Assembly: GCA_017462505.1 (NCBI GenBank)
Contig: JAFTQY010000052.1
Location: 1 to 8,301 of the forward strand
Direction of reading: 5' to 3'
DNA: 8,301 nucleotides
DNA from: Clostridia bacterium
Lineage (GTDB): Bacteria > Bacillota_A > Clostridia > Christensenellales > Borkfalkiaceae
A program made the position numbers and the translations under genes. Positions 2,689 to 4,398 of this stretch are shown one piece after another. The notes under the pieces are model-generated. The model made no database searches and was not told the DNA's origin. It was given only the letters and a program-made list of their open reading frames with translations. The stretch's first letter is position 1. Every line of letters begins with the position of its first letter.

Positions 2689-2727
2689 AATAAACCTCCT
2701 GTGTTAGCCGCAGGGGAATATGTACTA

Positions 2728-2741
2728 CCGCCAAGCGGCGG
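2728..2741 (-). other. Short GC hairpin upstream of the small Cys-rich gene
   Basis: CCGCC (2728-2732) and GGCGG (2737-2741) form a 5-bp stem about 40 bases upstream of the start codon of the leftward gene, inside its probable 5' leader. No convincing sigma-A promoter could be set for this gene; A/T-rich boxes at 2759-2787 are candidates with poor spacing. The rest of 2689-2861 holds only A/T-rich sequence, including A6-GCGG-T6 (2801-2816). Confidence 0.3.
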
Positions 2742-2861
2742 AAAACCTACGGCGACGTGTTTCTATTACATAATATTCTTTTTTCAAGGGCGGTTGTGTT
2801 AAAAAAGCGGTTTTTTCCAAGATTTTTTTGATAGGATTATTCAATTTTTCCCTTTATTTCC

Positions 2862-2890
2862 TTGCTTAAATGAAAAAAATGCGCTATAAT
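2862..2890 (+). promoter_or_regulatory. Sigma-A promoter for the ECF S component-coaX operon
   Basis: -35 TTGCTT (2862-2867), 17-base spacer, perfect -10 TATAAT (2885-2890). Transcription would begin near 2896-2898, right at the first base of the folded leader, leaving a 5' UTR of about 105 bases before the start codon at 3002. Confidence 0.78.
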
Positions 2891-2896
2891 AAAAGC

Positions 2897-2972
2897 ATAC
2901 TCGCGGAGAATACGCTTTTTGAGGCGGTTCTACCAAAAAACGGGTAAATATTTATTTTTTTGCTACGGGTAT
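2897..2972 (+). promoter_or_regulatory. Candidate pan-type RNA / riboswitch-like leader
   Basis: A hairpin spans 2905-2934. GG pairs with CC, A2932 is bulged, AGAAU (2907-2911) pairs with GUUCU (2927-2931), A2912 is bulged, and CGC (2913-2915) pairs with GCG (2924-2926) around an 8-base loop. Two bulged adenosines on opposite strands around a short helix are what I remember as the hallmark of the pan RNA motif, found upstream of pantothenate synthesis genes. The flanking AUACUCG (2897-2903) can pair with CGGGUA at 2941-2946 or with CGGGUAU at 2966-2972; a U-rich tract (2949-2961) lies between the two partners. The genes downstream are an ECF S component and pantothenate kinase, which suits control by pantothenate or a derivative. 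The pairing is read from the sequence; the family name is from memory and unverified. Confidence 0.55.
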
Positions 2973-2996
2973 CGCGGAGGCGAACTCGATAGGAGG
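2971..2996 (+). promoter_or_regulatory. Stem-loop abutting the Shine-Dalgarno of the S component gene
   Basis: UAUCG (2970-2974 region) can pair with CGAUA (2987-2991), with an inner GAG/CUC, directly before the strong ribosome binding site AGGAGG (2991-2996), which lies 5 bases from the ATG at 3002. This helix uses bases that also take part in the long-range pairing of 2966-2972 with 2897-2903, so the two folds exclude each other. Confidence 0.35.
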
Positions 2997-3001
2997 TTTT
3001 T

Positions 3002-3604
3002 ATGGAAAAGCGGAAGTATTTTTCCGCGAAACGCGTTACGGGGCTGGCGGTATTGCTCGCGCTCGTGATCGTTTTGCAATGGTTCGGCAGCTATTTCAAA
3101 ATAGGTGCAACGTCGCTGAGCTTCGTGCTTGTGCCCATTGTTTTGGCAGGGGTGCTCTACGGTGCGATCGCGGGCGGCATTATGGGTCTGGCGTTTGGCG
3201 CGGTGGTGCTGGTGCAGGCGTTGACGGGCGTAGACGGATTTACCCTGATCTTGATAGAAGATCATCCCGTTTGGACGGTACTGCTTTGCGTGGTAAAGGG
3301 CACGGCGGCGGGCGTCGTTTCGGGCTTGCTCTATAAATGGATAGCAAAGAAAAACAGCTACGTAGGCGTGTTGGTCGCCGCGGCGGCTGCGCCTATCGTC
3401 AATACGGGGCTCTTTATTTTGGGTTCGCTGTGTTTTTTACAGGACACGCTCAAAGCGAACTTTGTCGCGGGCGGACAGACGGTGATCTACTTTTTGGTGA
3501 TCGTTTGCGCAGGGATCAATTTCTTGGTGGAATTTGCCATCAATCTCGTACTTGCGCCGTCTATCCATACGGTTTGCCGCGTCGTCGGTAAACGGACGAA
3601 ATAA
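3002..3604 (+). CDS. ECF transporter S component, probable pantothenate (or related vitamin) uptake
   Basis: A 200-residue integral membrane protein with about six hydrophobic segments (roughly 12-31, 38-53, 55-73, 90-113, 119-144, 160-187) and positively charged ends. This is the size and shape of energy-coupling-factor S components, the substrate-binding subunits that work with EcfT and the EcfA/A' ATPases. The stretch 'FVLVPIVLAGVLYGAIAGGIMGLAFG' region (about 41-66) is typical. Small residues in segment 1 (A16, A20) could serve contact with EcfT. No EcfA or EcfT gene is in the window, so it likely uses a shared module encoded elsewhere (group II). coaX follows after 11 bases, and the leader carries a pan-like hairpin. 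Pantothenate is therefore the best-supported substrate, by inference from context only. Confidence 0.85.
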   Translation: MEKRKYFSAKRVTGLAVLLALVIVLQWFGSYFKIGATSLSFVLVPIVLAGVLYGAIAGGIMGLAFGAVVLVQALTGVDGFTLILIEDHPVWTVLLCVVKGTAAGVVSGLLYKWIAKKNSYVGVLVAAAAAPIVNTGLFILGSLCFLQDTLKANFVAGGQTVIYFLVIVCAGINFLVEFAINLVLAPSIHTVCRVVGKRTK

Positions 3605-3615
3605 AAGGAAAAATT

Positions 3616-4398
3616 ATGATTATTTGTATAGATATCGGCAATACGAATATTAAATACGCGATCTATGACGGGGACGAACTGAAAGTTTCTTCCCGTGTGG
3701 CGACCGATTTCAAAAAGACTTCGGACGAATACGGCGCACAACTGACGGGCATGCTCGCGGCGCGCGGCGTAAACGTGGAGGATATCGACGGGGGTATCGT
3801 TTCTTCCGTCGTTCCGTCTTTGGATTATACGATCGATAAAATGTGTCAGCTGTATTTGCAGATCGCGCCCTTGCATATCGCGCCCGGCTTAAAATCGGGC
3901 TTGAATATCCGTTGCGACGACGCACGCGAAGTGGGTGCGGACCGTATCGTCAACTGCGTTTCGGCGATCGTCGGCTACGGCGAGGGAACGCCCATGATCG
4001 TGGTGGATTTCGGCACGGCGACCACCTTTAATATCATCAGCGAAAACAACGAATTTATCGGCGGCGTAATCGCGCCCGGGATTAAGGGCTCGCTCGATTC
4101 GCTCGTCAACGGTACGGCGAAATTGCCGCGCGTAGAAATCGAAGCCCCCAAGAGCATTATCGCCAAAAACACGGTGACCAACATGCAGGCGGGTATCGTG
4201 TTCGGCTTTGCGGGGCTTGTCGAATATATCGTAAAGCGTATAAAAAAGGAGCTCAAAGCCCCCAAGGTCAAGACGATCGCAACGGGCGGTTTCTCTACGA
4301 TCATCGCCAAAGAGATCGAGGGGATCGACGTAGTGGACAAGTTGCTCACGTTAAAGGGCTTGAAATATTTGTACGATTTAAACACCGTCAAGGCGTAA
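3616..4398 (+). CDS. coaX: Type III pantothenate kinase
   Basis: A 260-residue cytosolic kinase of the ASKHA fold that phosphorylates pantothenate, the first step of CoA synthesis. Family motifs are all present: N-terminal phosphate loop DIGNTN (6-11), GADR (107-110) with the catalytic aspartate D109, DFGTATTF (131-138), and GGVIAPG (149-155). Length is normal for CoaX. Type III enzymes typically need a monovalent cation and are not inhibited by CoA, so control at the level of gene expression would make sense. The start at 3616 has AAAGGA at 3605-3610, 5 bases upstream. The gene lies 11 bases after the S component gene and is clearly co-transcribed with it. Confidence 0.97.
   Translation: MIICIDIGNTNIKYAIYDGDELKVSSRVATDFKKTSDEYGAQLTGMLAARGVNVEDIDGGIVSSVVPSLDYTIDKMCQLYLQIAPLHIAPGLKSGLNIRCDDAREVGADRIVNCVSAIVGYGEGTPMIVVDFGTATTFNIISENNEFIGGVIAPGIKGSLDSLVNGTAKLPRVEIEAPKSIIAKNTVTNMQAGIVFGFAGLVEYIVKRIKKELKAPKVKTIATGGFSTIIAKEIEGIDVVDKLLTLKGLKYLYDLNTVKA

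Follow-up and report, generated by a model that had tools for sequence, protein, structure and literature searches.

We analysed an 8,301-nt stretch of DNA from a Clostridia bacterium (the window) in which an RNA leader precedes genes for an ECF S component and a pantothenate kinase. Our best explanation, based on sequence comparison, is that this S component-coaX leader is a divergent pan-type RNA through which a CoA-pathway signal exerts feedback control of the ribosome site, a reading that we consider likely. A preliminary description of the DNA had already placed a pan-type RNA on an uptake-plus-kinase operon, and that assignment is supported by the conservation of bulged adenosines and base pairs and by reciprocal covariance-model matches. 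The occurrence of a pan-type RNA on an uptake-kinase operon, in hosts lacking pantothenate synthesis and mostly lacking CoaBC, eliminates the majority of the ligands that could be considered; only a short list is left.

A tandem leader RNA and the operon behind it

The hairpin that had been noticed at positions 2905–2934 (+ strand), with A2912 and A2932 bulged on opposite strands around a 5-bp helix, was present in the minimum-energy fold and was also recovered by the hairpin scanner and alignments described below. It is real, and it is half of a larger tandem RNA spanning 2898–2996. The span originally given to the element, 2897–2972, was too short, as the fold adds an outer stem, P0 (2898–2903/2941–2946), and a second hairpin (2963–2992); the preliminary description saw hairpin 1 but overlooked the outer stem, the hairpin over the ribosome site and the pathway losses of the hosts. 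Minimum-energy folding of 2897–3001 gave −28.9 kcal/mol (z −2.35, with 3 of 200 shuffles equally good), and the same fold holds P0 and both hairpins with two bulged A's. Hairpin 1 is predicted to comprise the pairs G2905-C2934 and G2906-C2933, the 5-bp helix 2907–2911/2927–2931, and 2913–2917/2922–2926. Hairpin 2 (+ strand), also pan-type and likewise found by folding, scanner and alignments, has a CTA/TAG base and a 5-bp helix, CGGGT/ACTCG, between the bulged A2971 and A2989. The Shine-Dalgarno sequence AGGAGG (2991–2996, + strand) starts inside the hairpin 2 base. P0, the weakest helix, joins TACTCG (2898–2903, + strand), assigned from the minimum-energy fold, to CGGGTA (2941–2946, + strand), assigned from the fold and from alignments A2 and A4. 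A linker U run (2955–2961, + strand) corresponds to T-rich columns in related leaders, and its last three residues, 2959–2961, are paired with 2994–2996 of the Shine-Dalgarno sequence in the predicted fold.

Hairpin 1 had been described as starting near the expected transcript start. A presumed −10 element, TATAAT, can be read by eye at 2885–2890 (+ strand), and by eye it recurs at a like distance in many related leaders, but a consensus promoter scan of the window returned no + strand promoter; the transcript start is therefore an inferred one. When 30 nt of coding sequence were added to the fold, the mean pair probability of hairpin 1 was only 0.10 in the window, where its competitor is a pairing with the gene start; L001 and L002, which are most closely related to the window, reached 0.92 and 0.94. 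The first codons in the window (3002–3031, TCGCGGAGAA) can pair with part of TTTTTCCGCGA in the 5′ leader, in competition with hairpin 1.

Several other features were considered and rejected. A resemblance to purine riboswitches (GTTCTACC..CGGGTAAA..GCTACGG) had no Rfam support, a three-way junction closed by 2897–2903/2966–2972 was an artefact of the cut at 2972 and competes with hairpin 2, and a strand exchange of ACTCG 2899–2903 for ACTCG 2984–2988 was, by eye, confined to the window's closest relatives. Elsewhere in the window, a 73-aa ORF on the − strand (2467–2688) with a Cys-rich tail, CNCSCNCGCNNGY, had no match in Pfam or NCBIfam.

The genes said to lie downstream were confirmed. The first (3002–3604, + strand) encodes a PanT-like ECF S component (PF12822, E 3.9e-13) that also matched by sequence the PDB chains 4rfs_S and 6zg3_C, which we take to be pantothenate ECF complexes. 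The second, coaX (3616–4398, + strand), encodes a type III pantothenate kinase (PF03309, E 4.4e-70; PDB 2h3g, 3djc and 3bex among eight matches). Between the window and locus L141 of genome G001, CoaX is 98% identical and the S component 82%, and on this sequence comparison the S component changes much faster than CoaX. Residues 102, 104 and 199 are mostly D102, A104 and F199 in 41 CoaX proteins encoded beside the leader and mostly E, P and Y in six comparison CoaX proteins, the groups being defined by leader type and not by the CoaBC status of each genome. D102 and A104 precede the GADR motif, and D102/A104/F199 form a possible substrate-pocket signature.

Conservation among related leaders and kinship with the pan motif RNA

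Relatives were collected through an alignment of 33 S components, which led to 80 genome loci (the best 80 of 194 found); a scan of viral contigs for relatives gave none. In 81 leaders (the window plus these 80), the final 128 nt were searched with a scanner for base pairs, a 5-bp helix, opposite single A bulges and an upper stem. It found 108 A/A 5-bp hairpins, whereas 50 dinucleotide shuffles averaged 2.2 and never exceeded 7; as the leaders are mutually related, the counts are not independent. Helices of 3, 4, 6 and 7 bp accounted for 13, 12, 1 and 2 hairpins, and each of the other 15 bulge-letter pairs for 0–3. At least one hairpin was present in 68 of the 81 leaders and two in 39 by the strict scanner, and a relaxed scanner found two in 47, a few of them doubtful. 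Hairpin starts were mostly about 88–109 and 37–49 nt before the start codon.

A lack of conservation of the bulged A's and of paired changes in related leaders had been named beforehand as what would refute a pan-type RNA; when the leaders were aligned, both were strongly conserved. Alignment A2 holds 31 of the 47 leaders with both scanner hairpins, a selection biased towards the A's, and leaves out the window, L001 and L002 (held out on purpose) and 13 divergent or doubtful leaders. In A2, 88.8% of cells pair (96.4% in hairpin 1, 97.8% in hairpin 2 and 54% in P0), 26 of 29 pairs vary on both sides, and the covariation score was 0.593 versus 0.279 when shuffled and at most 0.171 when slid. Covariance model R1 was built from the A2 leaders, with a short calibration and hence rough E-values. 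It recovered the window, which had been held out, with a score of 60.1 bits (E 1.1e-10); of 50 sources outside the model, 31 gave matches at E<1e-3, and every one of these fell on the leader. The 60 R1 matches at E≤0.01 that contain no A2 sequence were aligned as A4, which is fitted to R1 and so favours the structure. The four bulged A's occurred there in 60, 57, 60 and 60 of the 60 sequences, 28 of 29 pairs had both-side changes, and 473 double-change cells were counted versus 166.9 in shuffled alignments; the paired cells amounted to 91.3% in hairpin 1, 96.7% in hairpin 2 and 59–75% in P0, with both-side changes in the latter. All 11 pairs of hairpin 1 vary on both sides in A2 and in A4, and its sequence is little conserved beyond the A's and the helix geometry. 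The structure of the leader and its four A's are thus established by comparative analysis.

A scan with the Rfam pan covariance model (RF01749) had likewise been put forward as a possible refutation, and it went against the preliminary description: at gathering score no Rfam family matched the window, and at E≤10 positions 2701–3101 gave seven matches, the best at E 0.15, with pan absent. RF01749 was over its cut-off in none of nine related genomes and gave no match at E≤2 in 20 related loci. Weak RF01749 matches in G009 and G007 (E 2.4 and 4.4; L081 and L082), followed only by small ORFs (93 and 107 aa), were taken as chance. Across the phylum to which G001 (the closest relative's genome) belongs, RF01749 was above cut-off in 138 of 398 genomes. 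Fifty RF01749-positive RNAs from a diverse subset of 73 sequences, with poorly aligned ones left out, formed alignment A3, which has the same geometry: 95.0% of cells paired, a helix length of 5 and four invariant bulged A's.

Each group was then recognised in part by the covariance model of the other. R1, searched against 52 pan loci (50 RF01749-positive and 2 weak), gave 10 matches at E≤10 and left 42 loci without a match. Seven of them had E-values under 1e-3 and coincided with the RF01749 match in every case (L091 and L110 are close relatives of each other); of the weaker ones, L109 (0.026) also coincided with it, and L103 (0.033) and L095 (0.12) overlapped it partly. Model R2 was built from the 50 A3 RNAs, two of which (L198 and L205) come from S component-coaX loci, and its short calibration also makes its E-values rough. 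With filters off, R2 matched the window at 2904–2996 with 27.0 bits (E 7.9e-5), the next best match reaching 9.0 bits, and the leader gave the top match in each of 13 loci picked, mainly for short length, from the 61 bearing the RNA; six were below E 0.005 and nine below 0.05, and L021, L027, L029 and L075 lay between 0.08 and 4.4. Among the 30 S-coaX loci from the order, R2 matched five at E≤1.9e-4, all with a non-PanT S component, and two more weakly (0.01 and 0.92). With default filters on 62 sources, R2 missed the window and matched at the leader below E 0.05 only in L014 (0.0058) and L028 (0.014), and R1, run at genome scale with a more stringent initial pass, recovered G001 alone of the 398 phylum genomes. 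The kinship of the leader with pan RNAs shows clearly only when searches are restricted or run with filters off.

Because RF01749 misses the group but R1 and R2 cross-match, we conclude from these comparisons that the leader is a divergent pan-type RNA, related to the pan motif by common descent with strong divergence and not to be filed under RF01749 as that model stands. R1 provides a covariance model for a group missed by Rfam's model wherever tested. A chance hairpin, or an unrelated RNA resembling pan, would be consistent with the failure of the Rfam model and with cross-matches confined to restricted or filter-off searches, but it is contradicted by the scanner counts, the covariation and the reciprocal model matches, and is the least credible of the readings considered here.

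Gene neighbourhoods and CoA metabolism of the hosts

The RNA was found at 61 of the 80 panT loci (31 through A2 and a further 30 through R1 matches at E<1e-3), and coaX is directly downstream in all 61. At the 19 panT loci without the RNA, coaX is upstream in nine, downstream in one and not found in the available stretch, which is short in some cases, in nine. A simple translational hairpin or an RNA thermometer, responding to no specific effector, would suffice for the overlap of hairpin 2 with the ribosome site, but leaves unexplained hairpin 1, the four near-invariant A's (60, 57, 60 and 60 of 60) and the tie to a downstream coaX (61/61 with the RNA, 1/19 without); we consider it very improbable. 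In L072, L074 and L078 panT comes after coaX, yet a hairpin-2-like element (GCCGT A TCCG..CGGA ACGGC A) can be seen by eye before panT. R1 is weak on L072 (E 0.31) and L074 (E 0.14) and does not match L078.

Within the order, R1 matched 35 of 297 genomes, and coaX is downstream in 30 of 30 R1 loci examined, these being the loci returned, with L141, the locus of L001, among them. Their S component was found with the window's PanT in 21 (two weakly) and not in nine. In L133, L137, L139, L147, L151, L153 and L160, proteins of 196–225 aa, hydrophobic by eye and not found with the window's PanT, are encoded between the leader and coaX; that of L133 had no Pfam or NCBIfam match and those of L137, L153 and L160 no NCBIfam match. 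Weakly L133-like stretches also occur behind RF01749-positive RNAs. On sequence grounds, L133-type proteins are a candidate new S component family for CoA precursors.

For the canonical pan RNAs, 150 loci among the RF01749 matches listed were compared, L083–L112 having 1.5 kb of downstream sequence only. KPR-like (DUF2520), panB or panC genes follow in 130, seven of which are PanS-panC. Seven others have coaX at most 2 kb away, preceded by S components that are of the BioY family and/or L133-like, and in one case by BirA too; the rest comprise four with weak L133-like matches and no coaX, three with an OPT transporter, three with BirA only and three matching none of the probes. The BioY-family proteins encoded between an RF01749-positive pan RNA and coaX (L116, L131, L198 and L260; PF02632 for L116 and L131, the others by similarity) may carry a CoA precursor. 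OPT-family transporters follow RF01749 pan RNAs in L123, L128 and L208 (PF03169 for L123, the others by similarity). Since Opt1 of yeast takes up CoA precursors in the form of mixed disulfides with glutathione (PMC12406275), the bacterial OPT proteins may by analogy also import CoA precursors. For the naming of transporters, a protein encoded between a pan RNA and coaX is probably a CoA-precursor transporter.

Gene content was examined in 30 leader-bearing genomes, namely G001–G009 and 21 of the 34 others matching R1 in the order. PanB was found in none of the 30 and PanC over cut-off in none (one 18-bit match), whereas CoaD was found in 30 and CoaE in 28. CoaB and CoaC domains were each found in two of the 30, the same two in both cases (G585 and G690), an absence of CoaBC elsewhere that rests on genomes without stated completeness. 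Among control genomes, the CoaB and CoaC searches were positive in 14 of 14, PanB in 11 and PanC in 9. In 28 of 30 cases, the hosts resemble the genomes that, as described in PMC6593275, lack CoaBC and depend on pantetheine, and pantetheine salvage by the type III kinase is probable in these 28 from their gene content. The type III kinase of P. aeruginosa has no affinity for pantethine, as stated in PMC12570885, so either the CoaX proteins here differ or an unrecognised CoaBC exists.

Probable control of the ribosome site and comparison with known systems

Folding was examined in 43 of the 47 two-hairpin leaders (L028, L030, L033 and L072 were left out). The ribosome-site motif lies 1–2 nt after the last (3′) bulged A in 43 of 43, and the start codon 11–16 nt after that A. 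On average, the pairing probability of hairpin 1 was 0.88 and that of hairpin 2 was 0.85, and the ribosome site reached 0.73; hairpin 2 was at or below 0.30 in five of the 43 (L005, L045, L047, L048 and L070) and hairpin 1 at or below 0.20 in two, the window (0.10) and L069 (0.20). Canonical pan RNAs had a terminator-like hairpin within 180 nt in 107 of 150 cases, compared with a mean of 1.25 and a maximum of 3 in 20 mononucleotide shuffles. The complementarity of the terminator 5′ arm plus loop to the 3′ strand of its own hairpin 2 was 15.0, versus 13.8 for swapped partners (best of 200 swaps 14.36) and 12.56 (maximum 13.07) with the arm shuffled. This antiterminator signal is modest, and the canonical pan leaders are, judging from their sequences, probably attenuators with an antiterminator. 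Because hairpin 2 abuts the ribosome site in one group and the terminator arm can pair with the hairpin 2 strand in the other, our results suggest that the formed pan hairpin is the OFF state, and hence feedback repression, on both platforms.

The opposite polarity would be an activating switch, in which the pan fold, once bound by the effector, exposes the Shine-Dalgarno sequence, and a different fold, adopted without effector, masks it. Even in predictions without an effector, a large part of the ribosome site is paired (mean probability 0.73 in the 43 leaders), and the window's ACTCG at 2899–2903 repeats the hairpin 2 strand at 2984–2988, making an exchange possible. However, the repeat is by eye absent from other leader clades, and both the abutment of hairpin 2 on the site in 43 of 43 leaders and the capacity of the canonical strand to pair with the terminator arm point to an OFF state when the pan structure is formed; we judge activation improbable.

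With feedback repression as the preferred reading, a plentiful CoA-pathway product would lead an effector to bind the tandem A-bulged hairpins and stabilise hairpin 2, which would hide the ribosome site and reduce the amount of transporter and kinase made. When the product is scarce, the hairpin would open and the operon would be translated. A mechanism in which binding holds hairpin 2 closed, with the ribosome site masked, is probable. Since the hosts examined are without PanB and PanC and mostly without CoaBC, the signal, if it is common to the leader and canonical pan RNAs, would lie at or after 4′-phosphopantetheine. The signal is probably 4′-phosphopantetheine, dephospho-CoA or CoA and not an intermediate of pantothenate synthesis, a point on which we are less sure than on the OFF mechanism.

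The signal could act directly or through a protein, and the effector of the leader may itself be a protein. Possibly, a dimeric RNA-binding protein, perhaps CoaX, uses the tandem hairpins as its operator and would hide the Shine-Dalgarno sequence when bound to both; the hairpins would then not be a metabolite aptamer. The tandem arrangement and the scant sequence conservation of hairpin 1 besides its A's and helix geometry favour such an operator, and a dimeric RNA-binding protein was suggested for the tandem pan hairpins by Weinberg et al. 2010 (PMC2864571). CoaX is the constant gene beside a divergent RNA and is present in 147 of 151 RF01749-positive genomes, but four such genomes (G026, G105, G171 and G269) had no CoaX match, and CoaX is also present in 211 of 247 RF01749-negative genomes, so co-occurrence decides nothing and CoaX as an obligate RNA partner is not supported. 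The protein operator as a whole is a serious contender, although we place it somewhat short of an even chance.

The leader resembles the pan motif RNA in having tandem hairpins, each with two bulged A's round a 5-bp helix, in the 5′ leader of CoA-pathway genes. It differs in possessing the outer stem P0, in having no RF01749 match, in its usual hairpin 2 helix (CUUGG/CCGAG, against the CGGAU/AUCCG type of the pan motif), in its position on a ribosome site and not ahead of a terminator, and in its control of uptake and a kinase in hosts that lacked panB and panC where checked. Described arrangements of pan include pan-panB-panC-panD in B. methanolicus (PMC4342826) and pan before panB in Paenibacillus (PMC5670726). 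No published case of pan on a coaX or transporter operon was found in a search whose scope excluded the supplements of PMC2864571 and most subscription journals, and the papers examined named no effector of pan RNAs. According to a 2022 review (PMC10043782), there was no validated riboswitch class for CoA. A bolder idea, which we regard as on balance doubtful, is that pan RNAs fill the vacant place of a riboswitch for CoA or for the precursors just before it (4′-phosphopantetheine, dephospho-CoA), as a tandem sensor like NAD+-I that in hosts lacking PanB, PanC and CoaBC controls a pantetheine-salvage operon whose S component imports pantetheine and whose CoaX phosphorylates it.

Vitamin-type ECF S component genes are also found under other RNA leaders, namely preQ1-II or THF riboswitches, whose architecture is different from that of the leader described here; neither family was matched by Rfam in this leader. 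The NAD+-I riboswitch (nadA motif) has two similar tandem bulged stem-loops, the second of them over the ribosome-binding site (PMC10043782, PMC10702441 and PMC7297122), and it carries a ACANCCCC bulge (PMC7297122). Our leader is unlike NAD+-I in having single A bulges only, other genes and no Rfam match, and is like it, by analogy only, in its tandem plan with the second domain on the ribosome site. The leader provides a compact version of the pan RNA, about 100 nt in length and probably translational in its action.
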